Source of the DNA: Loxodes magnus
Lineage: Eukaryota > Ciliophora > Karyorelictea > Loxodida > Loxodidae
Assembly (NCBI GenBank): GCA_946699065.1
Contig: CAMPDV010000437.1
Span: 186,001 to 250,000 of the forward strand
Length of the DNA stretch: 64,000 nt
Direction: 5' to 3'
Shown: positions 6,965 to 62,755 of the stretch, in pieces
How positions within the stretch are numbered: position 1 is the first letter of the stretch
How the letters are laid out: every line of letters begins with the position of its first letter
Notes under the pieces: generated by a model
What the model saw: only the letters and a program-made list of their open reading frames with translations
Told to the model about the DNA's origin: nothing
Database searches by the model: none
Program-made: the position numbers and the translations under genes

Positions 6965-9090
6965 TGGAAGAAAAGTTCAAGTATTCAGCATAATATACCT
7001 TAGGTTTTATTGAAAGAAAAGCAGGAAGAGTTGTAAGAATAAGACTCTTCAAGTGAGTGTAGTTAAACTCTTTAGAAAGAAGCCTTATAAGAGGAACAAC
7101 TAGAGATAGAAAGTAATAAGGAAGAATCTGCTTAGAATATAGAAGGATCAGAGAGGAAATATTAGCTAAAATAGTCTTTGTTTTGGAATAGCAAATATAT
7201 CTAGGATTTGCTTACTAAATTTCTAAATCTAAAGGATATAGCTTAGTTATAGTAAGTAAATAGATACTTCTATAATTTTGGCTACTTCTTTAAGAAACTA
7301 GATACTTAAATAATATAAAATGATATTTAAACTACAAAGAGTAAGATAGAATGGTTTTTAAGATAAATAAGTTAATCTGATGTTGAAGCTATTCATCTAT
7401 AAGGAAAGTTATTAGCTCTGAATGTTTGTGTATAAATAGGGAAAAATTTGGAGAAATCTATAATTCATAGAATATCAAAATTAAGAAATCCCTCTCTAAT
7501 GAAACTAAAAGAAGTTGTAATACAAAACTGACCTAATAATAATTTTGATTCCTTGCCTAATCTTTCAAATTTAAAGAGTTTAACGAATATATAAATTAAG
7601 GAAACTTCAATTAAAGAATATAATTTATACTTCATGTAAGAGTTAGTAAATTTGAGGTCGGTGTGTCTTGAAAAAGTTAATTAGATATCAGGTTAGTTTT
7701 TGGTAGACTACTGTTAAAACCTAAAAATAGAAAATCTAGAACTAGATAGTAAAATAATAGATTTCTAAAAGATAAAAGATTATTTAAAAATAAAGGGATA
7801 ATACATTCATAACATTAATATCAACTCTAATACTAAATTAGACGAACTTATTGATTTTTGCCCTAACTTAAATAAAATTGATTTAAGATTTACTAAAGAA
7901 TCTCGCTAACTTTTAGATAAAATTAAAAGGCTAGACCTTTAAAGTTTTAGCATTCGAAATGAGGAATTTTCAGAATAGGCTTTAAGAAATTTATTTGCTT
8001 GTAAGAATTAAAATCTTGAAGTTCTTGAAATTTTAAATAATAATCCATTTAAAAATGATTTTTTCCAACTAATTCTCTAAAGCACTCCTAATATAAAGAG
8101 TCTAAGTTGAACTTAAGACACAGTAATCAATTAAGTTAATAATTAGTAATAGAATGAAGATTAATAAGATATTAGCGCTACTTAGTAGAAGTTACTTTCT
8201 AGACTCGAAAATATTCGTATTAGAAATTTTCACTTATAAAGTGACTAAATTCTAAGATTTCTGCTTTAAATATCTCCTAATATTAGAACTATATAATTGC
8301 ATAACTATCAAGGTAGTAATTAATAAGTAAATAAGCAACCGAAAGAAAATGCTGCAACTTAAATTTCGCACTAATTTTGCTAGCTAGAAAGTATTTAAAT
8401 TTGGTAATAGATTTTGTTAGAGATGAAGCTATCTTAGTTATAATATAAAATTCGCCTAATCTAAAAAGTATATTATTTAAAGGGATGAGTCAAGTTAGAA
8501 ATGAAGTATTTCATTAACTAGGTATTTACACACCTAAATTAGAAAGTATTATTTGGCTAGATGTTAATCATATAACTGATGAAACTCTTAGTTTCGTCTT
8601 TTAAAGCTGCACTATATTAAAAAACATCATAATCAGACAAAACTAGTAAGTATTAAAGAGTAGTTAAATATCATAAAATCTATAAACTTAAGAGCAAGCT
8701 AATATCTCTCTAGGAGTAAGTACTTTCGAATGTAAAATGTGAGTAAAATAAACTATTAAATTATAGCATTTATAGTCATTATGACTAGAGAGACTAGGAT
8801 TAACAAATTAAGATGTAGCTTATATAATAAAAAATTGTCAAAAGATACGAACCTTAAATCTTTAAAATAATGAAGAAATAACGGAAGAAGCATTCCCTCT
8901 TAGAGATGAATCTGGGACTTTATATCCAATTTGAAATAACTTGAGAAGATTGTGCTTAAATTAATGCTGTAAAATAAATACTTAATGAATCATTGAAATG
9001 AGCCAACAATTCAAGAAAATTGTAATATCGTCTGAAAGATAGAAAGAATCAAAGGAAATGGATTTTAATGTTTTAAATACTATTATTTGA
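6965..9090 (+). CDS. F-box/LRR protein
   Basis: This is a probable substrate adaptor for a ubiquitin ligase. After a Gln/Glu-rich N-terminus, an F-box-like helix set (KFLNLKDIAQLQQVNRYFYN, about 7190-7280) is followed by some 550 residues of LRRs (NPSLMKLKEVVIQNW, NLSNLKSLTNIQIKE, NFDSLPNLSNLKSL and others) ending in TLNLQNNEEITEEAFPL and YPIWNNLRRLCLNQCC. The frame changes at 8403. Removing a 17-nt intron, 8404-8420 (GTAATAGATTTTGTTAG), restores it and gives LESIQIW-DEAILVIIQNSPNLKS, a normal LRR. TGA 9088-9090 is the likely stop, matching where the zinc-finger/F-box/LRR paralogue ends. The N-terminal start is uncertain: ATG 6964 is in another frame, and the coding frame continues slightly upstream without an ATG. 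Confidence 0.65.
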
Positions 9091-11300
9091 ATAAAAACTC
9101 TTTATAACTATATATAAGTAATTTTTTATGGTAAACATAGTTAAAGTAACCTTTAATACAAAGATTGCGAAAAATTGATAAAGCAAGTTCTAATTTATTA
9201 ATCTAGTTTGAGAGACTAAAAACTTAAGAGATATACAAAATGCTAAATAAAGTGTCTTCACTTAAATATAGATGGTTTGATTAAAGAAGGAAATATTATA
9301 AAAATAATTAAGCTATTTTTAAATTAATCCTTAAAATATATCTAGGTATTAATTTGCTAAATATAAAAGATCTTTATTGGTTATACTTAATTTAGGTAAT
9401 TTCATATTTTTTTATTTTAACTATCTAATAAAGAAAATTAAGTATCTTATAGTATAGGATTCTTCAAAATCTATAAATATAAGATTTCGTTTTCTTTTTT
9501 TCTAGTTATAATTAATTTAACTTCGAAACATATGGAGTATTTTAGCTCTAGTCGATCTAACTTTTAAGAATCATATGGTCATATCATCCATTTTAGCTTT
9601 ATTTAACTTAAATTTTCAAATATTAAATAATTTTTCTCTTTAAACTAGATTTATATAATAATATCTAATTTCAGTTTTTCTTATTTTAGCTATAAAATAA
9701 TTCCGTAGTTTGATGAATAAGTTTGAAAGGTGCTTTTAGATAAAATATAAGAATATTTAGGAGTTTAGTTATTCACATTTACATAAGAGCAATTTTCTCT
9801 TTTTGTGATATTTAAGTACGTTTAAGTAATGAATGCAACTTAATTTCTTTTTTTAAGTGTATTTTTTCAATCTTATTTACTTTAATATATCTTTCTAATA
9901 TACTAATGCTTTTCACTTTTTACCTGTTTTATTTTATTTATTCATAAAGTTAGAATTTTTTAAAGTTTAGCACATTATTGTATAAATTTTCTAAGGTAGT
10001 TAAGAAAAGCACTAGATCTTAATTTTCTAAGTTTTAAAGTATATTTATTGATTGATTAAGAACTAATAGCATATAAGTAGATATATACTTATACATAATA
10101 CATTAATACTTACTTTATTTAGTTTAAGGTATAATATATCTTTAAGTGTTAATACTTATAATCTATTAATATACTTATATTCAGTTTGCTACTTTAATTA
10201 TCCCTTTTCGTTCAAGTATAGCTATTCATTATATTCTATATGCTATTCCATTCTATCTCTTTATTTGCTATTCTAATTTTTTCCAAAAGGTCAAAATTGA
10301 GAAAACTGTATACATCTCCATGAGATAGTTTTATTGTATTCCTTTACATTTCTAAATATTATGTAGATTATCTTATCTTTGAATACGCATCTTATAATGA
10401 AGATTAGCTAATAATATATCTGCAACAGGAAAATATCTAAATATGCGTTTGTAGTCTCATTAGGTATTTTAGATAGATTAACTAAAGTATAATACACTTT
10501 TACTATCTACATATTTAAGTGATTTCTATAAAGCATTAATATCTTACTCTTTTGTATCTTCTTGCTTCTTTTGACCTATGTGATGAATACCTATTCTCTT
10601 TTTATCTAATTTTCATATAATATTCGATTAAGCTTTTTTATGATATGACTTACAAATAATAAGAGGAAGCTAATAATTTTAAAGATATAAGTTTAAATAA
10701 TAGACTTTTCTTACTTATCTATTTAGAAGCAACTTAATCAGTTATATCATTCCAATATTCATATACATAGTATTTCCTTCCCTTTTTAATTCGCTAGTTA
10801 TGCAATATCCTTTTTATTAAAACTTGATTAGCGTAGATAAACTGAATAAGATACTAGAAGTTATTTAATAAATGTAAATAGCAATGATAATTAGACTAAA
10901 GTATTTAAATAATTAGCTTTTATAAGCTAGGGAAATGATAATGTAAACAATTCTCCTTCCTATTGCTTATAGCTTCTTATATTTATGTAACTATCCTTAG
11001 AAGTTAATAATCCTTATTGCTAGAATATATACATTACTAAATCTATTTTTACATCACTTAACAAGGGATTTGATAAACTTATTTGATTATAACTTCCTAG
11101 CTGCTACTTAGATATATCATATTTAATACAGTTACAGTATTTTATTCTAAGCTTAGTTTAGCTTGCCAGTTATAATAGTCACATACTTATTTCTTGTCAT
11201 TTAGTCCTAAAGCTAAAAGAATCTATAGTAGTTTAATAAAATTGCTTTTCCTTTTGCTTATATCATAGTTGCCTATATAAACTACCAACTAACTATTCTT
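9091..11300. other. intergenic, no gene recognised
   Basis: AT-rich sequence with many short hydrophobic translations in all frames and no motif, intron or compositional signal I can trust. It separates the F-box/LRR gene from its decayed paralogue. Confidence 0.4.
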
Positions 11301-11309
11301 TACTAAATG

Positions 11310-17221: not shown

Positions 17222-19026
17222 ATGGGGAACTATTAATACCAAGAAGCTTTTGCTAACTGCTTTACTAAGTGCTTTTTGTAAAAAAACTAGTAACAGTGCA
17301 TGTAGTTGGAATAGACGATGGATTAAGTTGTGAGTTAGTAAGAATTTTTTTCATAGTAGGCTGGAAATTATGGTGATAAGGAGGCTGAGTTTGGTGATAA
17401 TTAATCTGAAAAGCTTTAGTTGAAAGATAGAAAGTAAAAGCTTATAAAGTTGTTTCAATCCTAGACTTTTAATGATTAAGGTATAGATCTTATATAATAA
17501 GGAAGTGCTTAACCTAACTAATCCTTTAACTATAATCCTATTTCTAAAAATCTTAGCAGAACTTACTTCTAAAAGAGAGCTTTAAGTCTCAGGCCTTTAT
17601 AGGACTTCAAACTCAATATCAACAGTTCTTCATTTGTCTAGAAAAATAAGAGCAAATTTTAAAATAAATACAAGCTGGAAAAATAGATTGGATAGGGTAA
17701 CTTTGGGAAAGTATTTATAGGAAAAAGCAAATTTGATGAGAAAACCTATGCTATTAAAATAATAAATGCTTAGTAGGATAAATAATTAATTAGGAGAGAG
17801 TATAAAATACTTAAAAGGTTTGTAAGTTAATTATTCAGGATCATCCTAATATTGTAAAGCTATTTGGAATATACGAGGAGGAGTAATATACTCAATTTGT
17901 CACTGAATATATTAGTGGATAAACTTTAGTAGAATTGATGAATCAAGGCAGTCAATTTGACTAGTTAAAGACTATGACTATAATGAAGTAAGTTTTATAA
18001 GGGGTGGCATATTTTCATTCCAATGGTATCTTACATAGAGATCTTAAGCTTGATAATATCATATGCTAGAATATAGAAGATAATGAAAACATGTGTGTCA
18101 AAATAATAGACTTTGGATTATCCATAGCCCAAGATTAAATTGAGGGAAAAAGAATAGCAGGAACGCCATAATATCTTGCTCCTGAATCTTATTCTGGAGA
18201 ATATTCAATAAAGAGTGACATTTGAAGTTGTGGAGTCATAATGTATGTGCTTTTATCACGAGAATTTCCATTTAGCAACCAAGAAATAAAAACTTTTATA
18301 TAGAACATAAATAAACTTCAAAGCTTAGAAAGTAAAGCTAAGGCATTTAGAGTTAAATTTGAAGAAAAAGAATGATTATAAATATCCGAATAAGCAAAAG
18401 ATCTAATTATTAAAATGCTAGAAGTAAATCCATAAGAAAGAATTAGCGCTTAAAAAGCTTTAAAGCATGAATGATTCAAAAGCTCAATAAAGATTAACTT
18501 CAACTTGCTTGGAGAGTATATAGAAAGGATGCTAAGCTTTCAGGTAAGCAAGAGAATAAAAATAGCAGTCTACTGATATATTGTTTCCTAGTTAATGGAT
18601 CCATAAGAAAAAATTCATATTAGAAATATCTTCACTTTTATCGATTACGATTAAGATGGAAGAATTTCTTTGAAAGATCTGATTAAATCTTTAAAAACAG
18701 TGTACAAAGTAAAGGTAAAGAAAGAAGAAGCCAAAGAAATATTTAACTCTTTGGATATTAACAATAGTGGATACTTAGAATGAAACAAGTTTCTAATTGC
18801 TTGTTTATAGTGAGACTAGATCTTAAAGAATAGCTAGTATCTTGATCTTGTTATTTAGAAATTAAATTTAAAAAAGAAGAACAAAATACACAAGAAATAC
18901 TTCTATAGATTCTTCAAAGGTAAGCTAGAAAAAGAGCAGGTAAAGGAGATAGTTTAAGAAATTTAATTTGACGACAAGGATTGCATCAGTACTGAATATT
19001 TCAAGAGAATGATGCTAGAACAGTGA
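17222..19026 (+). CDS. calcium-dependent protein kinase (CDPK), type 1
   Basis: A Ser/Thr kinase with C-terminal EF-hands, about 595 residues. The N-terminus MGNYQ with Cys at 13 and 17 predicts myristoylation plus palmitoylation, so membrane anchoring. The kinase domain (about 145-405) shows the glycine loop IGQGNFGKV, the Lys of YAIK, HRDLKLDN (about 265), DFG, APE and DIWSCG. EF-hand 1 is DYDQDGRISLKD (about 468) and EF-hand 2 is [12 protein letters not shown] (about 505), with Lys instead of Glu at position 12; a third loop is degenerate. A 17-nt intron at 17822-17838 (GTAAGTTAATTATTCAG) interrupts the codons before DHPNIV, and removing it restores the frame. Trp residues in DIWSCG, HEWF, LEWN and LQWD are TGA. 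The stop TGA follows MMLEQ. It is paralogous to the three CDPK genes further right. Confidence 0.9.
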
Positions 19027-19299: not shown

Positions 19300-22200
19300 T
19301 TCAGATATGATAAGCTTATACTTCCTCAGTTTCATCATAGTCCCATAAAATCTTCAAAATTCTGATCTTTTTATAGTTTTACATACTCTAAATAAGTTGA
19401 TTAGACTTCTTTTTACCAAAAAACTGAAGCAACATAATACTTCCTAAGTCTCATTTATTATATATTTTAAGCTTTAAGAAAGTACTCTTTAAAGCTTATT
19501 GACTGTCTTAAAACTTCTTATCCCTTTTAATTTTTCTGAGTAACCTAATAGTTTATTTTTGACTCTTTGAAATAAAGCGAATATATGAACTATCGATTGT
19601 TTGCTTGAAACAAAGAAGAAGGCCGTAAAGAATTAAATATCTACCTATTGTAGCTAAATATTGCATCGTAGCCTTTTAGCTTCAAGAAATTATACTTAAT
19701 TAGTTGACTGACCAGAGTGAACCTTAAACTAAATTACATATAAAAGAAGCTGATAAATGTGAGGAAGGAGTTAATAACCTTAATGTACTAGAAATTAACT
19801 CATTAAAGTCTGTAAGATACTTTAATAAGCCTTTCTGATAGAAATACTTGAAATCAAATAATCAGCTTATTGCTTTTAAGGTAAATCAATATTAAAGCCA
19901 AGAGTTTGGATTTCTAAGCAATAGTTATTAAGACTCTAATATACTCAACAGAAAAGAGATTAATTGGCAGGTAAAATTAAGAAGGAAGATTTTTTAAAAA
20001 CTTGAGAATGGCTAAAATTTTAATTTTAAGGCCTAATAAACTAAAGTATCACTATATATGTTCTATCATTTTAAATCTTTGATGAGATAAAACGATTTCT
20101 ATTTTTAATAAAGTTACCTTATAGTAGCCTCGCTATAACTAAGTAAGTATATTTTATTTTTTGCTGAGAGATTAAATTTTTAAGCTTAAGGTATAATTTC
20201 ACTCTATCTACTTATGGAATTTGCAACTATACTCAAGCATTAAATTTCTACAGCTACTTTTAGCTCTACTTTGTTAAAAAGAGCTTAGAGATTTACTAAC
20301 TAATAACTACATAAAAGGTAAAATAAATAAGCGATTCTTTGCAGGTCTGAAAACAAAATACCTTAAGCCTCCTATACAAAGTATTTTAGACTTCCTCAAT
20401 AATTAATCTAATTATAAGTAGGATAATTTCTATTGAAACTAAGTCATTTAATTCTACCTAGAATAAAATAGGCTAAAGATGAAAAATTCGATAAGGTTGG
20501 TTATTAGATAGAAAAGAAAGAGAGCTAAACTAAAGCTATTAAATCTATTAACTATTATCTCTATCTACAATATAATTAAGCAGCATCTTATATAAGTTAT
20601 AGCTTTTGGAGAGTAAGAATCAGTGAGCAATCAAAACAGTGAAGATATTTATCATCATATTTTGACTGAATTAAGCATAGCAAAAATTTAGAAAGCTGAT
20701 TATTAATTTGTATAGAAGCTTATAAGCTTTATATTTGATTAATGAAATCAGATCTTTGTGAGAAATAATACAAGCATACTCTAATCATAATATGCAGGGT
20801 TCTAGTTAATAAATTGATTGTAGCAAGTATACATGTCCTCAATAGAAAAATAGCTTATATAATTTGACTACAAATCTATTTCTATAAGACAGAAATAAGA
20901 ATTTACCGAAGTCTCTCAGAAGGATCAGTTAAGCGATGAATAAATATGACTAAATTAGAAGAATGCACCAATTAAGAATTGGATTTTATATATATCCAAA
21001 CTAATAGTATAACTATTATATCTAAATTCAATCTATTTAATTAGTAGTAATATAGTAGCTTTATTATTATCCTTCTTTCCTTATATTTCTTACCTTCTTC
21101 TCTAAATTTTGTCTCCATATTATCTTAGGATATTGATTTAAGTTATATCATTTGATTATAATTAGATTAATATATTTCATTTTTTCGGGCTAAGCTTTTA
21201 ATAGTACAGAGGACTTTCTGCTTTTTCTTTAAACTGTATCTGTTTCAAATTTAGCTGTAGTATATGCTAATAAAGCCTATTAAATAATCTATGCTTTAAT
21301 AGCTCTTTCTCTTATATACTAGCTTCAGCTAATAAAGGCTTTGTCTCTTTTACTATTGTAAGAAAATCAAGGAATTTCAATTTTGTTTACTCCCCTCAAT
21401 CAACTTCTATATCCTCGAAAGAAAATCCTGCTGCTCTAAATGAAAAAGTTAAAATAGATGACTAAAAGTAAAATTTCCATTTGTGTGATTTAATACTTCT
21501 TGTGTTGAAATATACTTAGTTTAAAGCAGATTTAGTCATTAGTAAACTATAGTAAAAACTATTTAATATCTTTCTTAGAATGATAGCAGTATTAGCATCC
21601 TTCTGAAAAGGTATTTTAACAGATTGTATATAAAACTCTAATTTTTCTTAGATATCTAAACGAAAGACTATTAGATAAGCTCTAGTAATATCTCTTCACT
21701 CAACATTATAAATCAGAATCTTTAAACGAAAGTTATATAAACCTAGAGCGGACTAGTATTATTGAAGGCAATAGTTTAAGAATTAAAATGAAGCTTTAAA
21801 TATTAAGACTCTTGTCATTTATAAAATCTCTTACTTTATCTATTTAAATCATCCTTAAGATTTTTTTAAACCTATTATAGTGATTTAAAGATAAAGACCA
21901 TTGTAATAAAGTTTCTTAGTATAAAGTAATAAGCTTTTAAGGTCTCTCCAAGAACGAATTTAGTAAGTAAAGTGTTAGATAATTTCATTTTTATAGATAA
22001 GTTTTATTAATATATAATAGAAAGTTATTATGTGCTTTGGCTTAAACTTAGGAAGAGTACTAACATGAATAAGTCTATTCTTGGTAGAGACAGTACAATG
22101 GTATCTTTTAAATTTTTGAAGTTAATGAAAATGAAAAATATTCATCCCTGAAAATACTTTTTGAAGGATGGTTTAACTTATTTCAAGTTCAAGCTAGTAG

Positions 22201-23470: not shown

Positions 23471-24018
23471 AAACTAAAGGAATCTTTATTATGGAATCTT
23501 CTGATGTCTTAAAGAAAGTTTAAAGAGATAAAGCTAAAAAATAAGTCAAGCTATCATCTAAAATATTTATTCTAAATAAAGATTTATTATCACTTGATAA
23601 AAAACAATTATTTTAAGAATGCTTTTTTAACTTTATCAATATGAGTATATTTTAAGAATTAGATAAAGCTATAGAAAATTATTAGATGGCTATTTAAAAT
23701 TATTCAGGCTTTATAAAAATTAGTTTCACAAATAGAATTTTCTAGTTTAGTAATGTTTAAAGATAATTCTCTACAATCATTATTAAACCTTGCTACTCTC
23801 TATTTTAAATAATAAGTAGCATCTTATAAGTCAAGATTTATTATCTACAAGAAAGAAAATAAATTTTTCTTGCAAAAGTTAAAAAGTATAAATAAGTACT
23901 TAGCTTTAAAATATTTTGGGAAGTAATAAAATAAATGTTTCGAAAGAAGCTTAATTCAGGAATAAACTCAAAGTTTATTTCCTCTTGAAAGTCTTCCTTC
24001 TAATTCTCCTTCGCTCAC

Positions 24019-25152
<1,134 letters not shown>

Positions 25153-26477
25153 TTTTTATAAAAGTATAGCAAATTCATCTTTTAAATCATTATTAATTCC
25201 GTTTACCAATTTTAAAATAGTCATATAATAATTAAGAGAGTAAACGGAGCCAGATATGATAAAGAAGATATACCAGAAACGAATAGAAGTATGGAGTATG
25301 TTAATTATGATTATTTTTAAAAGCTTTAGTTGCAAAAGATTCAAATTTAATATTTAAAGCTTCTCTTAATTATTTTAAATAAAGTATTTAACAATTTAGA
25401 TTAAGCTTTATTGTATATTAAATAAAAATTGTCTAGTTGGAGATTAAATACACAGATAATTTTTTAAATCACTAAAGCCATAAAGTCTAAATTTAATTTG
25501 TATCTTTCATTTAACTATCACTTTATAATTGACAGCATCACATTTATAGTTCTTGAACTTTTAAAAATGTTCTTAACTCTTCCTTTTTATTTTCTACAAG
25601 TTAATTTTTTATTTAGCTAATTAATTTCATATAATGCAACTTAGAGGAACCAATAATTTTAAAATAAGCAAATAAAGTTATTTTCAAATAGATACAATAA
25701 AGAGAAGTTTGTTGACTTTTCTAGATAAAATATAAAATCCTAAGCAATTTTACTTATTAACCATATTCTATTTTTTATGCATTTTCCTTACTTTTGGATC
25801 TAATAATTTAGAAAATAAAAATTTAGCTTTTCTAAGTATAAAAGGTTTATTAATTGATGTAAGGATATATTTAATTAAATAACTATTCATTTTCATAGAA
25901 ATAAGATAGTTCCTTTAATGTCATAAAAGACTGATTACTCGGATCTTATATAAACTAAATTTTTATGGATGTACTTGTTTGTAAATTAGTTTAGGCTTGA
26001 TGACTTAATTAAGACATAATTTGAGTTTGAAATTAGTGGTATTGGAGAATCTTATAATGCTATTTATTTTATAAATTAGACTAAATAGCTTTTAAGTAGT
26101 TAATTATTAAGCATCAAACTCTTAATGAAGTTATTATTATCTCTAAATATACTAGCACATCATTTTCTTCACTAAGCACTATTAAAAATAGTAATAGCAC
26201 TATATAATTTCATCCTCTGGTATAAGAAATTACGCTAAAGCTACTAAAAAAGCAGACTTAATTATGGCTTTGCTTTTATACTTATAATTACTAGTGAATG
26301 TAGAAAGCTTCATTCTTACTAACTATCATTAATTTTAGATAAACATGCTAATTTTTCTTTCTAATAGCATCCTTCTTTTTTAGATATCCTTAGTATGCTT
26401 TTGCCACTATGATTTGATATAATATAAGTGTAAGTATTATATTTGTATATTTATATAGATCATTATATATATAATAA
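25153..26477. other. actin-tRNA spacer, probable actin promoter region
   Basis: Non-coding spacer between the divergent actin and tRNA-His genes. About 140 bases next to the actin start are conserved in copy B, as is most of 25440-25760, which suggests shared regulatory sequence. I cannot point to a specific promoter element. No gene is seen. Confidence 0.4.
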
Positions 26478-26549: not shown

Positions 26550-26579
26550 ATTTTTATTTGTCTCAGTGTAAATAAAAAA

Positions 26580-30016: not shown

Positions 30017-30059
30017 CTTTATCTAAATAAATAGTTATTTAATTAATTTTTTAATACAC

Positions 30060-40627: not shown

Positions 40628-40638
40628 TAAATAAAAAT

Positions 40639-42066: not shown

Positions 42067-43200
<1,134 letters not shown>

Positions 43201-43379
43201 GTGAGCGAAGGAGAATTAGAAGGAAGACTTTCAAGAGGAAATAAACTTTGAGTTTATTCCTGAATTAAGCTTCTTTCGAAACATTTATTTTATTACTTCC
43301 CAAAATATTTTAAATATAGTAAAAAAATTATCTATTTATATTCTCTTTTGTATATACTTTTTATATATAACAATATAAA

Positions 43380-46160: not shown

Positions 46161-47992
46161 TCATGCCAATATTTATTAGACACTATCCAGTATTATTTCT
46201 TTAAATTTTTCTCTGCTTATACTATTTTAATCATCAAGATCTATTTCTTAAAATATTTCTTACATTTGCATTTCATCTAATTTGCCTCTAAAAAATTAGT
46301 AAAAATGTTTCTTTTAAATTTTGTTCGAATTTTGTGAGTCTAATATTTAAATGACTAAGTCTAATATTTTATCTTCAATCAGGAGTTTCTTTCATTATAA
46401 GCAAGCTATTAGAAATTTATCCCATTCTAAATATCCACTATTATTAATATCTAATATCTAGAAAATTAGCTTTACTTCTTCTTTATTTGCCTTGTATTTT
46501 TCTATTTATTTGAATGACTTCAATAAATCTTTATTTGAAATTCTTCCATCTTAGTCTTAATCTATTAACTAGAATCCTTATCTTAAATCATTAAACACTT
46601 ATGTATCAAGTAGCAAAGATACTATATACCAATAGATAGCTATTGTTAGTTTTTTATTCACTTCAAATTATATTAGCTTATCTAAAAATTCTTCTAGTTA
46701 ATTAGGCTAAACTTTCATTATATCACTGAACCACTTATGTCTTAAACACCTTTTAGCGCTCGGTCTTTATTATGGTTCTACTTCCAACATCTTCTAAATC
46801 AGGTCTTTTGCGTCTTCTGATATTGAATATCATTTTTCTTATCAAAACTTTACCTTAAACTTTTTTCTATCTGATTGCGAACTTGAATGCTTTTAGTTCT
46901 TACCTACTTAGTCTTCTATATTATACGTTTTGAAAGGAAAAGATCCTACTAATAGTAAGTATAAAATAACGCCACAACTCCAAATATCACTCTTACATGA
47001 ATAGTTGCCAGAGCATGTCTCAGGGGATAAATAGAGTAGAGTACCTAATATGTCTTAATTTTCTAGGGACTTCTGATTTGTTGATAGTCCAAAATCTATA
47101 ATTTTTACTAGTATTTAATTAGGACTTTCAAAGTTCTAGCATAGTATATTTTCCAGTTTCAAATCTCTATGCAAAACTTCAATTGAGTGGCAATAAGAAA
47201 CTCCTTGAAGAATCTATTTCATTATAATTTTGGCTTTCTATTCGCTTATTTGACACTTCTAGTTGATGACTTTTAAAAGGCTATGTCCTTTTATGAATTC
47301 AGTTACAAAGAAAGTTTTATTTTCTTCCTCGAATATTTCATAAAGCTTCATTATATTAGGGTGATTCTAAAATTAAAAGTTACTATATTCTTCAGTATTT
47401 AGAACTCACTCTAAATTCATTTATCGTTTTTATTAGACTTCATCGTTTTTACGGCAACTTGTTTCTTACTAAGTTTATTTCTCGCCAGGTAAACCTTTCC
47501 ATAGCTTCCTCTTCCTATTTGACTTAAGACTTCGTAGTTTTCTGAAAATTTAGTATTATTAATTATTATGAAACTTGAGCTGAACAGTTAGATTTTGGCA
47601 ACTGTTACAGGACTTTGGCTGTCTAATTTTTTTTTCAAAGGAGAATCCGAATTCTCATCTTAGAATAAGTTTAGCGAATATCTTTTCTTAGAGTACAAGT
47701 TTATTTTCTTATCTTTGACTGGTGATTTATCTTTTCCTACTTGTATCTCTGACTTCGAACTTATTTTATATATAATGCTACTCTATTTTGAGATTGGATT
47801 GCTTGTTTATGGAAGAAAAATGTTTTTATCCTTCAGCTATAAAACTTCCTTAGAAGCCTGGCCTTACTTTTCAGCAATTTAATTTGTAATTTACTCAACC
47901 TGCTACTACTAGCAGATCTACTCAGTTTAAGAGCAACTAAAACAGCTTAATAAGCTTTACGTCTTTAAATTAGAGCATTTACTATTCCCCAT
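46161..47992 (-). CDS. calcium-dependent protein kinase (CDPK), type 3
   Basis: 604 residues. The N-terminus MGNSKCSN gives an N-myristoylation signal plus Cys6, followed by [18 protein letters not shown], clearly related to type 2. The kinase domain has [39 protein letters not shown] and DIWSCG. EF-hands are [12 protein letters not shown] and [12 protein letters not shown]. The 17-nt intron at 47367-47383 (GTAACTTTTAATTTTAG) is at the same codon boundary as in the other CDPKs, giving [19 protein letters not shown]. The stop TGA is at 46163-46161. It lies outside both inverted repeats, so it is an older paralogue of the type 2 pair. Confidence 0.9.
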
Positions 47993-51600: not shown

Positions 51601-53572
51601 ATGTAAAAGTCTTTTAGTCACGTAGACTCAGATTTCTTATCCTTTAATTTTAAAGAAAATTTGAATGAAAAAAGCATTTTTTCATTCTCTTTAGCTTATA
51701 AAATTTAGCCTACTTATTTAAATTTAATTAAGTATGTAAAAAATTTATAAAAATTCAGTATAAAACAACCTAATATCATTTATAATAAAGAGCTAGTTGA
51801 TAAGTTATATTCCATAGAGAAAAATAAGTATTTTGCTAAGTAGTCTTTATATCAAAAATGCTTTACTAAAAAAAGTGTTAGAATAACCTGATTGATATCA
51901 AGTGGGAAATAAAAATAAGCTTTCACTTTATTACAACAAAAGATAAAATGCTTGCACTTTCTTAAAGATTATTCAATCTTGAAAATAATAAAATTAAAAA
52001 TTGCGATTTAAGAGAAGTCTTATATAAATATGATATTCTTTGATTTTAAAAGAAATCGGGGATTAAAATTTGTATTTTTAATTATAAAATACCTTCAGTT
52101 ACATAATCATAAAAAATCTTTGTCCTTCACTTTTTATTATTTTAAATGATGCATTCAAAATAACGATTTAAGTTTTATCAGAAATTTTTATAAGCAAAAA
52201 AGGATCTATTAAACTACTAATTTGATTCTCAGGTTTTAAAGGTTTCACTGCTTTTTAGTTTTATGAACTAAGTGTAATTTTTTTTAATTCTTGCTTTAAA
52301 ATTTTTAATTTATGTTTGCTATATTTCGAATATTATTGCAATTATTCAAATTTTTGTGATTTCCAGGTTTTTTTATTTATCTCGTTCTTTCACATCTTTA
52401 ATCAACTTTTTACTAATTTTGCTTACCTCTTTAAAAATATATTTCCATTAGATTTTTAAGTTTAGATTTTTATTTGTTTCTTGCTTTTAATACTTAAGAA
52501 ATCAGCCTAAGATTTTTATCAAGCATTTATAGTTAGAATTTTATGTTACCAATAATTTAAAAGGCATAATATTTTTCTGATATCTCTTTTTTACCTTGCT
52601 TTATCTATTTTTCTTTAATAAGATAAATTCTTTCAGATTTTTAAATTTGTCTCATAAAGTTTTAAATTCCTTATATATTCAGAATCTGTCCTAAATTTTC
52701 AACCGAGCTTTGATTCTTATATATGACTTTTCGATTAAATTCTACCAATCACAATTACCAAATTATTAGCCCCCTTATTTTAATTTTTTTCGTTGATATC
52801 TCTCAGTATATAAGTCATATTGGGGTATCTTTCTCTTAATTATTCGTAATATCTAAAGAAACCTTTTATGAATGATGCTTGCCCTAAAAAATGAGGTTTA
52901 TAAATTATTAACTAAGAGCTTAAAACTAGACAATATAAAAATGAGACTAAATTTAAAAAAATGACTTATATAACAACAAGTAAAGAATTAATAAAAGAAT
53001 AAAAATTAATTTATAGACTAAGAACGCAATTAATATTTTTTAAAGCTGATCTCTCAGAAAGACATATTGATTAAGAGTAGATACTATGCATTTGTTATCC
53101 ATAAGAAAAATTTGAACACGTCTTTGATTGCTAGTATTGCAGATAAATTATATAGGAAAACAGTCTTCAGATACAAGAAAAATTATAAAACTTACACATA
53201 AACATAAATCTGAAAAGAAGGAAATAATAAATATACAATAAACAATGAAACTAATAAAAAATAGAGAAAAATTTAAAAGAAATGGTAGAATATAATCAAA
53301 TATTAATAAATTAAGAAACAAAAAAGAATAAATAAATCCTAGAAGATATTGATCTTAAGATTAAAAAAACATGGTCTAGCATAAAACAAAAACATTAACA
53401 AATAACTTGATTCTAAGAATGTTTGAGGGGAAAATAAATCCATTAGTAATATTTGAATAAAGAAGATTTAAAATAATTATTTTTAGAATGAACAAAGATA
53501 CAAGAAGAAGAGAAACTAAACTAAAAAAAATCAAATAAAAACAATAATGAAGACCTAAGAGTTTCAGAATGA
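48678..53572 (+). CDS. giant secretory/membrane protein, unknown
   Basis: Starts MIKLPSLFIILGSTLNQLLF, a convincing signal peptide, and continues in one frame for 3.56 kb. A 17-nt intron at 52242-52258 (GTTTCACTGCTTTTTAG) then switches to the frame that ends at TGA 53570-53572. The spliced length divides exactly into 1626 codons. The long N-terminal part is mixed and partly charged (CKTRAKKFREGQLKISLKDV). After the intron come several membrane spans (FQVFLFISFFHIF, FYLALSIFL, TKLLAPLFQFFSLISLSIQV). A cytoplasmic-type tail follows with a Cys cluster (ILCICYPQEKFEHVFDCQYC) and coiled coil (QRNLKEMVEYNQ-type). The order signal peptide, large ectodomain, spans, coiled tail is common in big ciliate surface proteins. 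Further introns in exon 1 are possible. Confidence 0.5.
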
Positions 53573-54276
53573 GAGTGATTCATAAAAATTATTTGATTAA
53601 GCTGAAAGGCGAATATTATTTAATTTAATTTAATTTAAGAGCTTAAAATAATCTATCTTCTCACCTTTTTAATAAAATCCTTTTACTATATTCATTATTC
53701 AAAATTTCATATTAAAGCGTCCAAAAACACTGAACTTTCTTGATATTAAGTAATATAATAAATTTTTATTTGATTTCTAAGTATAAATTATTTCATAGAT
53801 ATTAATAAAACCAAACCTTTGCTAATTTTTTTCAAAATGCTTATCTAATTAAGCAAATATATGAATAAGCTATTAAAAAGAGATGATTAAGCTTTCTATA
53901 ACTTTTAATAATTTGAAGAAGGAAATTTAAATGAAAGCCTATAAAAACTCATGTATATCTTTACTCTGTCTTTGAAGATATCAGATAATTGGTAAGATAT
54001 TGTTAAATATTATCGTATCATTTCAATAGTTTTTGATCTCTTTAAGCTAATTACCATTTGCTAGAAATATTTGCTTCAGGTATCTTTCTTAACAATTATA
54101 TTTAATTTAAATATTATAATATCTTATTCCCTTTATTTAAAGGAAGTTATAAAGTGTTATATATGATAGTTGATATAAGTTTCTTTGATTAAGAAGATTA
54201 TAGTTAGTAAAGAAATTTTATTTCTTTATTTTAAGTTAAAATAAAATATTTATACAACTTTCAGTTCAAATTAACT

Positions 54277-56043
54277 TCACTCAAAATAAATTTCCGTTTT
54301 TTCTATTTCTTTTTAGTAAACTCCAATGTTTATCTTTTTAAATTTATTCTTAATTTCTTTAATTCACTCCTAGCTAATTGATGAGCACATATATAAGTCT
54401 AAAGATCTTAAGTTATTATAAATAGGACAAACTAGGCCTTATTCATCTTTTAAAGGAAATCCATTTTCAGTAATATCTTTATTTTGACTTAAATCCAACT
54501 TGTTAAGAAACTTGCAGTTTTATATTAACTATGCTACTTATGAATCCTTTAGAGAGAAAAATCTTAAGCTTAACTATTTTAGTCTTTATATTCTAACTAT
54601 ATCTTAGATTCAGTTTTCTCCATCTACTTTACATTCTTCTAAAACTTCTAATTATTGACAGTTCTAGCTCAGAATTTCTAGAGTCTCTTTCTTAATTTCC
54701 TTAATAGCTTTTAACTCAATATGCTTAAGCAATTTACAATTTTAAAAAATGAATCTAAGTGTCTCATCTTTTATGCAATTAATGCTTTAGATTGTTATTT
54801 ACTCATACTTAACTCCATAAACTCCTATCTTTTAAAGTGTTTCATTTGTAATTTACTTTAGCTCTGATAATCATAGCTTTTATAACCCAGGTGTATTTTT
54901 AAGCAAGAGACTCAAGTTATCATCGTTAAAGAAAGGGCAGTTCTTAATCCTTACAAAAGTCAGCTTGGTCCATTATTTTGAGAAGAAATGAGTAAAGGAG
55001 TTGTTACTGAAGTTGGCTATTCAAATTGAAAGGTATTCTAAATTTCTATTTCTAAGTGTTTATAAAATATTATCTGAAGAACTCTAAACTCTAAATAAAT
55101 CGATAACCTTTAAGTTAGTGCATAAATCTATAAATTAATCAACTTCTTGGTTTCGGTTTATTTCTATGTTTTCAATTAAGTTTCCTTTTACCTCTAGAAA
55201 TTGTCTTATATACCTATAGTCTACTTCTTTACTTTTAATGACTAGAGTCTTTAAATTTAAATTCTAGCAATAATCTACCAGAAACTTACCTTTAACCTGT
55301 TTGATTTAATACAGCTAAAGAAATTCAAGTTTTGATACATTTTCTATGAACTGAAATTATTAGTCTTGTAAAATGAATTCTGAAAGTGTTAACTTTTATA
55401 AGTTCTAGCATAGTAAAATATCAGGCAGAGTAACACTAGAAGGTCAATTATGAATTTAGATTTCTTATATTCTAACTGGCTTGCTTTGGCTTTAATTGTT
55501 CTGATTGAATAAAATACACTTATTAAACATTAGCTGGATTTATGTACACAAACTGTCTTTTAACTATCCAGCATTTATTAATATTTGGGACACATTTGAG
55601 TGAGCAATCTATCTGAAAATTCATTCAAATTTATTTTAAGTATTCTAATAATTAACCTTTCTACTCTTCTGTATCTTGAGTCTTTTAAAATTGTAGCAAA
55701 ATTGATTAAGATATTTGCTTTATTATTGGAGTCTGCAAATATCCCTTTTCTTTAAGAACTAGAATATTTGATTAAGTATGTTTTTATTCTTTCAAATGTA
55801 GGTTTGTTGAACATTGTGCTTACTTTAATCTTATGTTTGTATAATTTCTTAACTACATTGAATTAAGTTGCTATCAGTTAATTTCACATCTTAGTGGCAT
55901 TTCTACCATTTTAATTTATTCTCAGGATCCCTATATAAATCAAAGCATCCTTAGCAGATATAATCTCCACATTATAGTATATATAGGCACCTTTCTCTAG
56001 ACCTACTACAAAAGTTGCAAATCTACTATGTAGGTAAATTCAT
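54277..56043 (-). CDS. zinc-finger, F-box and LRR protein (right-arm copy)
   Basis: Mirror image of 33292-35058: ATG 56043, TGA 54279-54277, 588 codons plus stop. Where I compared the two copies the coding region was identical, while the 5' flank has substitutions (for example near 56150). Domain order as for the left copy: Cys/His finger, F-box-like helices, LRRs. Both copies look intact, so both could be expressed. Confidence 0.75.
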
Positions 56044-58364
56044 TTTTCTAATTATTTTAGTTTTCTTAGATTTAATCTATAAATCTGTTTAAAAATAAGA
56101 AAATAGTTAGATTAAGTTTAAGTGAGGATATTAATAAATTATCAGATTTAAAAAGGAAACAAATAGCTTAGCTTATGATTCAATGAAAGGCTCACTGCAA
56201 TTATTTTTAAGTTTGTAGTCTATTGTTAATACTTAAAAAAAGTTGGTTTTAAACGGAGATATTTATGATATCTTAGATGAACGAAACTTATCATTTCAGT
56301 TATTGATTTAAAAGAAATAATTAGCAAAGAAGATTTCAAAGGAAATTGAAAAATATATTCAGTCAGAGTGGACTATAGGGTGCTTTGTAGATTGTTAGAA
56401 TTAACTAAAGACAAGAGAGTTATTTTGAAAATTATTACATCTTTTAGAAAGAACTTAGTACTATTTAAAAATGATTTATTTTAAATGTTGTAGTCGCTTA
56501 ATGGTAAGCTTGCTCAATCGGTAAAAAATGAAAAATAAATATAATAAACAGCGATATAAAAACTTCTATCGGAATGAATGAAGAATATAAATAGAAAAGC
56601 AGCACAATCTTCAAAATTGAATGCTTCTATTTCTAAACAATTAGGAAATGTTTAAGTTACAATTATAAGTTGCTTAAACAAACATTAAGATTAGAAGTTA
56701 TATCTTAATTTATTTAAAGACTCATATGATTATCATATTGTTAACAATATCTCTTTAAAATAGAAATCAAATTAGAAATTTTCTAGTTTCATAAATTAAA
56801 AACAGCCACCATAGTTAAAAATAAGTGACTTGTCATAATATTTATCCTTTCAACTTCTAAATTTACCTAATTATAGTAATCCTTAAATCTAAAATTTCCA
56901 ATCCTAGTAATTATTTTTTTAATTGATAACTATTAATCTTAACTTAAGCAGAAGATATACCAAAAAGATTAAAAACCTTCTTTCCCACCCATTTTATCAT
57001 TTTAAAAAGTATTTTCATTTATAAACAAGAAGATAGCTATTAATGATCGAAACTTTAAATCAACTTAAGTTTCTGCTATCGTTATAGACTTTTTCACTTC
57101 TTTCAAAAATAATAAATTTGACTTAATATAATTTTAAGATTAAGGATTGCTTTATTATTGAAAAGCTAGTCTAAGAGATTATTATAAACGTAGAACTAAA
57201 ATTAAAAGCAGAGTATTCTTAATACATATTAGTAAGGGCTTTGCTAAGCATTCTAATCATTTTTAGAATTTAAAATTTCTATTATGCTAAGAAGATTGAA
57301 CTTGAACATTATGAATCATGCTTACTAAACTTAAATTTTCAGTGCTAATAACCTAGAGCAAAAGGTTGATTTTGCTTCATTAGCAGATCCCTCTATTTCT
57401 TCTTAATTTCTCTCCATAATGATACTTTCCTCTTGCCTTCCCTTTTTTAATTATCTTCTTAAATCCTTTGATAAACAAGGTTAGAAGTAATAAAAATGAC
57501 TAGTACAATAAATTTAGAATTAGTAAGGCAAAAATTTAAATTTAAAGTGATGAGTTAAATTTTATTAGACTATGAGATGTAAATTAAATGGCTTTATATA
57601 AAGTGGTTTTAATAATGATTAGTAGGATATCAAAAACAAATGAACGTTTGCTTCATAATCTAGAAAGAAATTCCTTTAAATAGACTGCAAAGAGGAACTA
57701 TGAATATTAAGTAGTTTAAGAGCCTTATAATATAATGCAGGATACAATCGAAAATTTACTATTCTCAGAATTGAAGTTAAAATAATTAAAGATTAATTAT
57801 AATATAGCAACTTATGGAAATTAAAGAAAGGAAGTTGGCAGAAATATGATAAATGTTGCATAATATCTACTTGTATTAAATTAGCAAATATCAAAGAGAT
57901 ATTAAATTTGCTTAACTAAGAACAAATTTCAACTCCTTACGCACAATTTTTTTAAATTTTATGAATGTTGAAATTTTTTTCCGTTCTTAAAACCATAAAA
58001 GCATTAAGAATATTTCTTATTCTCTTAAAATGTTTAGAATAAATGGTCCAATGTGAATATATCATATATCTAAGAAGCTATTCCTTCTAGTTTAAAAAAG
58101 TATCTATATGTTTACCAAAAAACAAGGAATTAAGGAGAAACATTTTGCTCTTTCAAAATAGATTAGTAAACGATAGAGATGGGAACTATTTTAAGTTCCT
58201 TTTAAACTCGAGTGATACATTTATCAAACTCTAGTAGGCTTTTTTAAAGATAATATAATTGAATCCTTTAAGAATAATTTAAGTCTTATAAAAAGGAGAT
58301 TAATTGAGGTCTTAGCCTGATAATGTTTTAAATAGCTAAATTATGTAGCTTTTAGATAATTATT
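56044..58364. other. no gene recognised (right arm)
   Basis: Mirror of 30971-33291, AT-rich. It is a candidate shared promoter region for the divergent LRR and coiled-coil genes. Nothing specific is supported. Confidence 0.4.
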
Positions 58365-59275
58365 CTCTCAAATTAAAAAAATCAGCATTAGTCAATCTCA
58401 GTTTAAGCAGTGCATTAAGATATTAAAATTTGTTCTGTTTGTCTTCGCAAAAGCATAATTAGAGTTTTTTTCTAGTATAGGAATCAGATTTATAAGCATA
58501 AGTAATGAAAATTAAATAATATTAACTTAATTTTACTGTTAAAAAACAGGTAAGAAGAGATTTTAAATCTAGAGTCTAACTTAGAAGGTAAATTAAGAAA
58601 TGCTTTAGAAGAAATAAATGAACTGAAGAATGAAATAGAAGTACTAGCTAACTTATGAAATCTACTAGACTTATATTAAGCATCTGCTACTTCTACAGAT
58701 TTATAAGTATATTCATCCAAATATTGCTTAAAGAGATGTAAGATGCTAGAAAGTAAGGATAATGCTAAAGGGTATAATTAAAGTTAAAGCAAATTAATAG
58801 AAAATTTGACTTTCTTAATAAGCAGGAATTGATTAGTCGTAAAATAAAGCAGCTTAGCATACTAAGATATTTATAATTTGTCACCTCAACTTAAATAGTT
58901 ATAGGTCGCTTATTTTACGAATATTTAAATGTTCAAATTTACCATTTTCATTGGAAAATTGGTTATAAGCTTAGTTATTAAAATCATTTTAAGAATTAAA
59001 CTTCAACGAACTTTAAGTTCAGCAAACTTTAAAAAAGTCATCAAATTTCATTAACTAATAATCTTAAAAAAGCATTTCTAAGATAAAAAATAAGTGTATA
59101 CATTTAATAGAGAAAAAGATATATTATACTAGCACTTAAAGGCAAAATTCCTCATAAATGCTTAACATTTCTAGGAGAGATGAAAATTAAGTAAATAGCA
59201 GTACTTACGACAGCAAAATTCTATTTAGAATAAATAAAAAAAGAGCAAACTTAATGTAGTTACATTTTAAAAGAT
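58365..59275 (+). CDS. Cys-rich coiled-coil protein (right-arm copy)
   Basis: Twin of the minus-strand gene at 30060-30970. The C-x2-C segment ICSVC (about 58428) precedes KHKQWKLNNINLILLLKNRQ and the coiled coil NLESNLEGKLRNALEEINEL. The C-terminal part reads NIQMFKFTIFIGKLVISLV and NREKDILYQHLKAKF. It ends just upstream of the CDPK start on the same strand. The exact start and stop are not resolved. Confidence 0.5.
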
Positions 59276-59318
59276 GTGTATTAAAAAATTAATTAAATAA
59301 CTATTTATTTAGATAAAG

Positions 59319-61132
59319 ATGGGAAGCTGCCAAGACTCAGGTTAAAAGGCCTAGAATCTTTTTACCTGCTTCAGTTGTTCTTAAGGTGAACAACTTATCT
59401 AGTAGTAGCAGAATGATTAAATAGCTAAGTTAGTCTTAGAAAAATAAAATTAAGACTGTAAGGAAGTCAAGAAAGCTTTGATTATAACAACTCCATTACC
59501 TCATGCAAAAGACGAAAAAGCAAAAGGAGTAAGTACTTTAAAAAAAACAGATTCAAATTTACTTAGATTAGCTGATTGAGATTAAGCTCTATCTAAAGAA
59601 CAGCTCACAAGTACTGGCATAAAAAAAAATTAGATTACTAACTAAAACTCAGACTTAGGCTCAGAATCTCCTTTAAAGAAAATGCTAGAACGAAAAAGTC
59701 CTCTATCTACTTGGAAATTCTAAATAAGTAGCTCTAGCTTCATATAAATTAACAATAATAAGTTTTCTTAAAATTATGAACTAGCATAATAAATAGGCGA
59801 AGGTAGCTTCGGTAAAGTTCATTTAGCTAAAAACAAGTTAAGCTAAAAGTTAGTTGCTGTTAAAACTACAAGATCTATCTAAAACTGCAAGTGAATTTAA
59901 AGAGAATTTTAAATACTAAAATTAATAGTAACTTTTTTATTTAGACTCATCCTTATATAATGAAGCTTTACGAAATATTCGAAGAGGAGGACAAAACTTT
60001 TTTCGTAACTGAATATATAAATGGATATACTTTAAGTAAATTACTATACCAAAATAATATAATAAATGAGTAAAAGGCTAAAGTTATAATGAAATAGGTT
60101 CTTTAAGGAGTCTCTTATTGTCACTCAATTGGTGTCTTACATAGAGACTTAAAGCTGGAAAATATTCTATGCTATAACTAAAAGAATTTGGACTAAATAT
60201 AAGTCAAAATAATAGACTTTGGGTTTTCTATAAATTAGTTACGGCTAGAAGATTAAAATATAATAGGAACTCTAAACTATTTATCTCCTGAGTCTATTTA
60301 AGGCTACTATTCATGCAAAAGTGATATATGAAGTTGCGGAGTCATTCTATTCCTACTTCTAGCTGGGTATTTCCCCTTTAAAAAGTATAATATAGAAAAA
60401 TACCTTTAGAATAGATAAAAGCTAAAGTAAGATTAGGAAACTTTCAAAAAGTTATGGGTAAAGTTCAGACATGAAAGATGGTATGAAATATCAGAGTAAG
60501 CTAAAGATTTAATAGAGAAAATGCTTACAATAAATTAACATCAAAGGCCCAGGGCTAAACAATGTCTCAGGCATGAATGGTTTAGCGATATAATGAAAGT
60601 AGAACTTAACTTGGTAGAGGAATCTATAGAAAAGTTACTTCAATTTTCAGTATAGAGGAAAATAGCCATAGCTATATACTGGTATATAGTTTCCTAATTA
60701 ATAGACACCTAAGAATTTAATGACTTAAAGCAAGGATTTATTTCATTAGATAGAGATTAGGATGGAAGGATTTCTCACAAAGACTTATTAAAATCTTTCA
60801 AAAAAGTAGAAAAGTATAAAGTAAGTAAAGAAGAAGGAAAATAGATTTTTAACATTTTAGATATAAATAATAGTGGATATTTAGAATGGGATAAGTTTCT
60901 TATAGCTTGCTTATAATGGAACTAAATTCTAGTAGAAGATAAAATACTTGACCAAGTAATCTAAATATTAGCCCCTAAAAACTAAATAAGCATAGAAAGA
61001 CAAAAATTTTACTAGTTCTTTAGTGGAAAGCTAGATGAAGAATAGATAGAAGATCTTTTATAAGAAATTTAGTTTGATGAGAAAAATAGCATAAGTACAG
61101 AGTAGTTTAGAGAAATGATGCTAGAATAGTGA
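59319..61132 (+). CDS. CDPK type 2 (right-arm copy)
   Basis: 598 residues from MGSCQDSG to TGA 61130-61132. Kinase landmarks: IGEGSFGKVHLAKNK (about 159), [18 protein letters not shown] (about 268), KIIDFGFS, YLSPES, DIWSCG. EF-hand 1 is DRDQDGRISHKD (about 471) and EF-hand 2 is [12 protein letters not shown] (about 508), lacking the usual position-12 Glu. A 17-nt intron at 59928-59944 (GTAACTTTTTTATTTAG) sits between FQILKLI and [12 protein letters not shown]. The Trp of EF-hand 2 is TGG here but TGA in CDPK type 1. The N-terminal residues differ from the left-arm twin, which could alter membrane targeting. Confidence 0.92.
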
Positions 61133-61284
61133 AGATTAATTAACAAATCATTTAATATTATATTAATTTAGATAGTTAAAATAGATATAGATAGTACTCT
61201 ATTTAATCTAAACTTAAATAAATGTATAAATAACATTTTATAATTCAAAAATAATCAAACAATGATGAATAAAGAAAAGAAAAG

Positions 61285-62755
61285 GAAACAAGCTTTATAT
61301 TTATTCCAAAATATAAGATAAACATTTTCATTTATTTTGTCTTTCTTAAATAGCAAATTAGTTATATAAGATAAAGACTTAATGAACCAAAACAAAACTT
61401 TTGAAAATCTAAAGATCTATTAGACTAGCATTTCTGTTTATTTCCATTTATATTTATTTTATAGTTTATCAGATTAGCTTCTTTATTCTCTAAAATACTC
61501 TTTATTTCTCCATTATTTACAGTTTTAATAACTAAAGAGCATTTATCTCCATTGCTATTTAACATAATTGATAATATATTAGCTTTCCACATTCCATATG
61601 ATTTTCTCTTTTAGTTTGAAGCTTTTATTCATGTTAGTTACTATCTCTATAAATAAAACCATTTTACTTTCAATTTTTAATCTCATTTACTTTGATATTT
61701 TTATCCAAAACTCTAAATTTAGAGAATTAAGGATAATCTTTTTTGCTTGATGTAGCATTTAAATAGCAAAAAAGTAGATTACTTAGATAAGATTTATAAT
61801 AAGACTCTTCAGTGCTAAGTGTTCTTGTACATTCCTGTAGTTAATGTATATTCTAAGTTTATATTATGGTGATATCATATTTCTGCTTAGAAATTGTAGT
61901 TAAGCAAAATTAGTAACCTTAGCTTGATATATTGATCCTAATAACAAATATAAGGCTTTATAACTCTCCAAATATTAAAAATGCTATTAAGCTATTTTTG
62001 CTTAAAAGAAGTTTAGCTTGTAAGATCGTATTTTAGTAATAATCATACAACATATTTTCCAAATATAAGCATAGTCTATTATTTATTTTACTACTGTATT
62101 AAAAACTAAGCTTTGCTAATAAGTTGTCTCATGTGTATTGTTATTAAACTACGATTGATTTATTATAGGATTATCATATGAAAATATATTAATTAGATTA
62201 AAATAACTAAGGCTTATGAATAAAAGCTTTTGGCTTATTATTGCTTCAATCATTCTGGATCTTATGCTGCTCTCTAGTCATTATGGTCTTTATGATTTTG
62301 AAATAGCAGGTAAAAATTATCTCATAGTAGAATCTTCAGTCACTCACAGTTGTTGATCTATCTCACTCCTAATTTAAAAAGCACTGCTTAGTGAAAAAAT
62401 ATGGAAATTAAAATTTCTTAAAATTACAAATCTAAGCATTTGGCAAAATTTAGTATTTGCCTTTTCTGAAATGGAATATACTTCTCTTATTACTAAAATG
62501 AAAAATATGATTATTAGCATTTAAATCAAAAAGACAAGCTTACATAGTTTTCTTAGTTTGATCTTAATATTTCTTCACACTTCATAGTATTTATTAAGGC
62601 TACTAAAAAGATTGTTATTGGTTAACTTTCCTCAAATATCTATTATAATGGATTGAAGTAAGCATTGTTCTTTAATTTTTGCTTCAAGTGATTTTTAAGT
62701 CTATTTAACTAAATGGCTGCTATATTCTTACTATTTTCTATTTAGTCTCCTTTAA
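61285..62755 (-). CDS. multi-exon membrane protein, unknown family (right arm)
   Basis: Mirror of 26580-28050, with the same single strong membrane span and long hydrophilic region. Both tiny introns are conserved at 61815-61830 (16 nt) and 61547-61563 (17 nt). It converges on the CDPK at 59319-61132 and starts beside tRNA-His copy C. Confidence 0.45.

Follow-up and report, generated by a model that had tools for sequence, protein, structure and literature searches.

We examined a 64,000-nucleotide (nt) window of the Loxodes magnus genome (contig C437, positions 186001-250000) in which CDPK genes, F-box/LRR genes and actin genes lie amongst long inverted repeats, and in which an initial annotation had listed twelve short segments as one uniform class of 16-17 nt spliceosomal introns. 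All twelve do read GT...AG on one strand and have the lengths given (nine of 17 nt, three of 16 nt), eight of them on the plus strand and four on the minus strand (29391, 47367, 61547 and 61815). Three sites occur twice through inverted copies that are 99% identical (25657-31411 and 57924-63678, with 29391 = 59928, 27772 = 61547 and 27505 = 61815), and the list therefore holds nine distinct sites.

The genome searched comprises 705,730,643 bases on 7843 contigs. The published L. magnus macronuclear assembly is 706 Mbp, and this karyorelict ciliate uses genetic code 27, in which TAA and TAG encode Gln and TGA is either Trp or stop (PMC11441545; this and the other papers cited here are drawn on in part). 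The reading frames of the window fit code 27. With TGA alone as sense the longest stop-free frame is 133 amino acids; TAA and TAG are therefore needed as sense codons as well, and once they are included the frames reach 620 amino acids. The initial annotation was right to read TGA as Trp, but that reassignment alone does not open the genes.

The CDPK genes and their predicted introns are laid out as follows:

17372-19023 (+): CDPK gene 1, kinase domain and EF-hands (coordinates without a fixed 5' end)
17822-17838 (+): predicted CDPK gene 1 intron, 17 nt, GT-AG, phase 0, between ...ILKRF and DHPNI...; consensus top 0.2%
28209-29857 (-): CDPK gene 2 (coordinates without a fixed 5' end)
29391-29407 (-): predicted CDPK gene 2 intron, 17 nt, GT-AG, same boundary; kinase profile, consensus top 0.8%
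46185-47833 (-): CDPK gene 3 (coordinates without a fixed 5' end)
47367-47383 (-): predicted CDPK gene 3 intron, 17 nt, GT-AG, same boundary, diverged sequence; kinase profile, consensus top 1.1%
59478-61126 (+): inverted copy of CDPK gene 2 (inverted repeat, kinase profile)
59928-59944 (+): predicted intron of this inverted copy, 17 nt; kinase profile, not an independent intron

Introns were placed with an external kinase profile, made from seven uninterrupted kinase domains elsewhere in the genome (L001, L002 and L004-L008; L003 omitted), and a spliced aligner that permitted frameshifts and gave all intron lengths from 8 to 200 nt equal weight. In each of the four window genes the aligner set a single 17-nt GT-AG intron at profile column 56, in phase 0 and at exactly the coordinates above, which bears out the claim that the four genes share one intron-bearing codon boundary. 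GT-AG came ahead of three decoy dinucleotide pairs by 8-19 half-bits in all four genes (12 of 12 runs), and the decoy runs resorted to a frameshift in 11 of 12 cases. The spliced product of CDPK gene 1 matches Pkinase (E=3.4e-71) and an EF-hand pair (E=2.3e-12). From this homology we infer that the CDPK segments in the window are real introns.

The same boundary could be followed through the wider family. A search with the spliced protein of CDPK gene 1 returned 84 matching rows, 8 of which pass through the boundary in one frame by our own count, so some CDPK paralogues seem to lack the intron. Fifty CDPK-family loci were aligned: L009-L038 were returned with the search (L009 being window gene 1), and L039-L058 were picked, almost all of them for a match that broke close to the intron boundary. 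L001-L008, other kinases with no intron at column 56, lie outside these fifty. Every one of the fifty loci has a GT-AG intron at column 56, most often of 17 nt (27 loci) or 19 nt (19 loci), with one each of 16, 21, 22 and 23 nt. The margin of GT-AG over the best decoy is smallest in L057 (1.0 half-bit) and next smallest in L049 (6.5), and it is 8.3 or more in the other CDPK loci; the 21-nt intron, ahead by just 1.0, is marginal. When repeated sequences were collapsed and the window genes included, 19 distinct CDPK introns were left, of 16 nt (1), 17 nt (11), 19 nt (4), 21 nt (1), 22 nt (1) and 23 nt (1). At kinase columns other than 56 the aligner also proposed introns of 33, 27, 117 and 15 nt; each of these lengths is divisible by three, and the candidates were discarded as possible in-frame insertions.

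A sceptic might take the CDPK segments for frame disruptions (indels, pseudogenes or assembly errors) or for programmed frameshift sites, and a frameshift is indeed only 8-19 half-bits worse than an intron in the window genes. However, the interruption falls at the same column and phase in 50 loci and always reads GTA...YAG, and one and the same frame is restored whether the segment measures 16, 17, 19, 22 or 23 nt. Random indels would not be expected to behave in this way. Introns of such size are also present in published RNA-seq data. Disruption of either kind is hardly credible as an account of these segments.

Introns in Rab genes extend the length series beyond the CDPK site. Aligned to a Ras consensus, these genes gave two introns of 20 nt and one of 16 nt; a further 16-nt intron, in L109, was read by eye beside a paralogue and was not reported by the aligner, for which the fetched stretch was too short. 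The pooled set of 23 distinct introns comprises lengths of 16 nt (3), 17 nt (11), 19 nt (4), 20 nt (2), 21 nt (1, marginal), 22 nt (1) and 23 nt (1). A single length is divisible by three (the 21-nt intron, margin 1.0), and the aligner has little power for introns of 3n length. No 15-nt intron occurs among the 23 distinct homology-placed introns. This distribution matches the published profile of L. magnus in its mode of 17, its near absence of lengths below 16 and its tail to about 25. In the published data, introns defined by RNA-seq have a mean of 19.3 bp and a mode of 17 bp, 93% are of 25 bp or less, those below 16 bp are negligible, multiples of three are depleted, and the introns are longer than those of heterotrichs (Seah et al. 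2024, PMC11441545). In mode, lower limit and genetic code alike, we found no difference from the parts of that paper drawn on here. Spliceosomal-type GT-AG introns of 16-17 nt are accordingly present, as the initial annotation proposed, and 17 nt is the published mode. Its description of the class as uniform did not survive comparison with the paralogues, and nor did a constant length for the CDPK intron, given that 19 distinct introns at that one boundary span 16-23 nt and Rab genes have introns of 20, 20 and 16 nt. As placed by homology, the intron class is short and rich in 17-nt members, but it is not uniform.

The ultra-short intron length class of L. magnus is already in print, as is the histogram of lengths. 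Since RNA-seq intron lengths have been published, the finding of tiny introns is already known and its rediscovery in the window adds little. What the CDPK family offers is one boundary, in dozens of paralogues, at which tiny introns drift from 16 to about 23 nt and which in some paralogues is unbroken. The series represents a natural test of minimum spliceosomal intron length and of branch-point placement. Length drift at one homologous site was not found in the parts of PMC11441545 drawn on here.

The initial annotation also held that introns this short leave hardly any room for a separate branch site, which now appears overstated: an A is found at position -6 or -7 in 20 of the 23 distinct introns, and Stentor copes with 15 nt. 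None of 20,000 trials with shuffled intron cores reached this figure. When the set was thinned to 17 introns, 14 of them had an A at -6 or -7, a count that shuffled cores reached in 11 of 20,000 trials. Among the 16-17 nt introns the A falls at -6 in 10 of 14, and among the longer ones in 3 of 9. The cores are composed of T (0.64), A (0.26), C (0.09) and G (0.01). On the side of the splicing machinery, a search for U2 and U6 small nuclear RNA (snRNA) genes found that the U2 genes keep GUGUAGUAUC, including GUAGUA, and that U6 keeps ACAGAGA. These intact motifs point to the ordinary major spliceosome. The U2 genes are multicopy (L104 on C120; C515 and C2784) and often stand as inverted pairs about 0.5-1.5 kb apart; among the matches listed, all 29 U2 rows sit on three contigs.

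The sequences suggest a most likely scheme for recognition of these introns. The 5' site, GTAAG, would be read by U1 and U6, whilst U2, by way of its GUAGUA, would pick an A in the T-rich core, where G is almost absent; this A would usually stand 6-7 nt before the 3' end. The YAG that follows the branch A would serve as the 3' site, and most of the variation in length would fall in the stretch from the 5' site to the branch A. A spread of 16-23 nt at a single site would follow if nothing but the 5' site and the distance of the branch A from the 3' end (some 6-7 nt) were fixed, and we hold this account more likely than the origin of a newborn intron considered below for another listed site.

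Comparison with heterotrichs was apt, as the organism is a relative of that group. About 95% of heterotrich introns are exactly 15 nt and the rest 16 nt (PMC11441545), a class not matched here, where none of the 23 introns is of 15 nt. In Stentor coeruleus the introns are mostly of 15 nt, with 7.19% of 16 nt, only the GUA is stringent, and the branch A is mostly at position 10 of 15 or 11 of 16, which leaves a 5-nt tail (PMC9505925). Both systems have tiny, A/U-rich GU-AG introns of the major spliceosome with a weak branch consensus, and both conserve GUAGUA in U2 and ACAGAGA in U6 (PMC9505925). Unlike those of Stentor, the introns described here are 16-23 nt long, with a GTAAG 5' site and a putative branch A mostly at -6 or -7. 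On the simplest view, Loxodes may keep nearly the tail of Stentor, with extra bases in the loop and a longer 5' site (GTAAG). A literature search at the level of titles, together with the parts of the 2024 paper drawn on here, yielded no report of branch position in Loxodes. Blepharisma stoltei likewise has tiny introns and UGA = Trp, but its introns are shorter, predominantly 15 and 16 bp, and only UGA is named as reassigned in the part of the report drawn on here (PMC9942806).

The remaining segments of the list, six distinct sites, are as follows:

8404-8420 (+): listed 17-nt intron; aligns to F-box/LRR paralogue coding sequence, with a one-base deletion here
22057-22073 (+): listed 17-nt intron; unsupported, without coding signal and without diverged relatives
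27505-27520 (+), copy at 61815-61830 (-): listed 16-nt intron in an orphan frame; candidate, poor consensus
27772-27788 (+), copy at 61547-61563 (-): listed 17-nt intron in an orphan frame; candidate, poor consensus
43505-43520 (+): listed 16-nt intron; unverified, 304 nt downstream of the stop codon of actin, the sequence being dispersed and lacking codon periodicity
52242-52258 (+): listed 17-nt intron; unsupported, without coding signal on the listed strand

Segments of this kind are common by chance. The two strands of the window hold 322 GT...AG segments of 17 nt and 306 of 16 nt, or about one per 400 nt per strand, and a 16-17 nt GT-AG segment near a doubtful frame break is therefore cheap evidence. 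We ranked the listed sites against these 628 segments with a splice matrix built from the 19 distinct CDPK introns, leave-one-out. The CDPK sites at 17822, 29391 and 47367 fall in the top 0.2-1.1%, and the others rank at 9% (8404), 14% (52242), 49% (27505), 65% (27772), 76% (22057) and 90% (43505). In score, the 19 CDPK introns range from -1.1 to 11.7 bits and the six other sites from -1.8 to -16.7 bits; the matrix derives from one homologous site and may be too strict elsewhere, the lowest CDPK intron at -1.1 standing close to 8404 at -1.8. When the four Rab introns were added to the matrix, none of the six disputed sites entered the range of the set.

Site 8404-8420 deserves separate attention. 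It lies in an F-box/LRR gene (6964-9121, plus strand) that has a one-base frame break at about 8406. More than 100 unbroken rows of F-box/LRR paralogues are found in the genome, many of them on contigs C266, C405, C524, C707 and C711. By our own count 109 of 116 paralogue rows pass through the site in one frame; the only rows split there, two for each copy, are those of the window and of a copy on C4957, and the remaining three are fragments starting near or past it. The segment aligns to codons in all seven paralogues read (L060, L061 and L063-L067). Against L060 the loss of one base is the single break in the gene between 6973 and 9121, over some 700 codons; the other breaks are at the presumed gene ends or outside them. 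Comparison of the two neighbouring LRR genes in all frames gave only noise, because no frame has stops. An ordinary intron at 8404 is contradicted by these alignments.

A more intriguing idea is that the segment is a newborn intron, in which an exonic stretch that lost one base is now spliced out so that the frame is restored. That this is the sole break over those 700 codons lends the idea some appeal, as does the fact that excision of exactly 17 nt, GT...TTAG, restores the frame, and the identical 17 nt recur in the second copy on C4957 (L062). However, the aligner favours a one-base frameshift even when the intron is made cheaper (14 vs 18), the consensus score is -1.8 with a G in the core, and it is no rarity for a random indel to have a GT-AG of fitting length close by. 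The C4957 copy, which differs by 18 substitutions over about 2.4 kb, has moreover lost another base at the place of window position 7707, within the gene and not in a homopolymer, and this looks like decay of the gene line. We therefore consider a newborn intron improbable, with a frameshift the favoured explanation. Were it true, frame-breaking indels in this genome could become 17-nt introns.

The site at 43505 presents a different picture. Five relatives of the region keep a homologous 15-nt stretch with a GT start and an AG end, and the aligner set a 15-nt intron in all five, 7 half-bits better than no intron; the query was the spliced window product, so the placement is circular. These 15 nt are a multiple of three and fall under the published minimum, substitutions relative to one relative number 37, 34 and 28 by codon position (43530-43800), which amounts to no codon periodicity, and the site is read through by a Pfam match that is weak and below threshold (E=0.0054). 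At 22057 and 52242 there is no Pfam match on the listed strand, codon scores are negative in nearly every frame of that strand, and searches for diverged relatives returned nothing beyond the query sequence or a near-identical copy elsewhere on its contig. The orphan frame at 27505 and 27772 has no Pfam match and no relatives past near-identical copies on the same contig; its best-scoring frame does shift as introns of 16 and 17 nt would need, with small scores. Gene finding by codon usage discriminates poorly in DNA of 25% GC and is used here as supporting evidence only.

It is very unlikely that all twelve segments are real and form one uniform 16-17 nt class. The form and lengths of the segments, the frame changes at 27505 and 27772 (a weak agreement) and the conserved ends at 43505 would be expected if they were, but 8404 aligns to paralogue coding sequence, 43505 shows the features just described, 22057 and 52242 are without coding signal or diverged relatives, the six non-CDPK sites score below the CDPK range (8404 just under its lowest member), and lengths at the single CDPK site already span 16-23 nt. 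The non-CDPK segments would instead be explained for the most part by a frameshift, by non-coding DNA or by frames that lack support, with GT-AG pairs present by chance. Where every stop codon can be sense, mending a suspected frame break with a GT-AG segment carries little evidential weight. The initial annotation is in this sense partly confirmed in its observation and partly supported in its interpretation, being right in the CDPK genes and over-extended elsewhere: homology backs four of its coordinates, equivalent to three distinct CDPK introns, and does not back the other eight, which represent six of the nine distinct sites.

Taken together, we put at roughly 0.93 the probability that the CDPK introns are ordinary major-spliceosome introns of L. 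magnus (mostly 16-25 nt, mode 17) and that most of the other listed segments reflect a frameshift, non-coding DNA or frames without support. Several observations weigh against this assessment. Splicing is predicted from homology rather than read from a transcript. Because a single homologous site supplies 19 of the 23 introns, both the consensus and the branch-A statistic are weighted towards related sequences, and the 23 include the marginal 21-mer and the intron of L109 read by eye. In three of the 23 the A lies elsewhere than at -6 or -7: at -8 in two 19-mers and at -9/-10 in a 20-mer. An ab initio consensus scan of 362 kb, redundant and mostly of family loci, revealed no length peak at 16-17 nt outside the CDPK site.

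Other gene families give a mixed picture. For TCP-1, 22 of 29 rows span nearly the whole domain in one frame. Amongst 124 kinesin rows, one gene (C133) is split by 31 nt, a figure obtained by coordinate arithmetic and not a multiple of three. More than 25 of these rows start late in the domain, and the upstream DNA of 16 of them gave no decision: no convincing intron was found in these 16 N-terminal regions, with decoys about as good as GT-AG, and they were excluded from the counts. For Ras, where 150 of 721 candidates were scored, some rows span the domain incompletely; the four of these that were read had introns. Introns within conserved domains are scarce in some families and present in others, which says little about the window.

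Some unlisted GT-AG segments of 23 or 17 nt in the window also score well against the consensus: 4961-4983 (+), 41437-41459 (+), 17544-17566 (-), which is antisense to CDPK gene 1, and 27299-27315 (-) with its copy at 62020-62036 (+).

The window is further marked by long inverted repeats of 99-100% identity (25336-35591 with 53744-64000, and 23905-25301 with 41918-43314), whose arms carry copies of CDPK, F-box/LRR, actin and tRNA-His genes. Further copies lie on the same contig beyond the window (C437:268963 and C437:274556), and the repeats may be true duplications or an assembly artefact. Two actin genes, at 42067-43200 (+) and 24019-25152 (-), sit in an inverted repeat of 100% identity; no frame break was seen in them, they end in TGA, and in-frame TAA and TAG are read as Gln. 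The tRNA genes, two of which lie in the large inverted repeat arms, are:

26478-26550 (+): tRNA-His (GTG)
40638-40710 (-): tRNA-His (GTG)
62785-62857 (-): tRNA-His (GTG)

Near the start of the window, at 1475-1801 (+), a 138-nt tandem repeat lies within a frame that holds MORN repeats and, after them, weak F-box and LRR matches.

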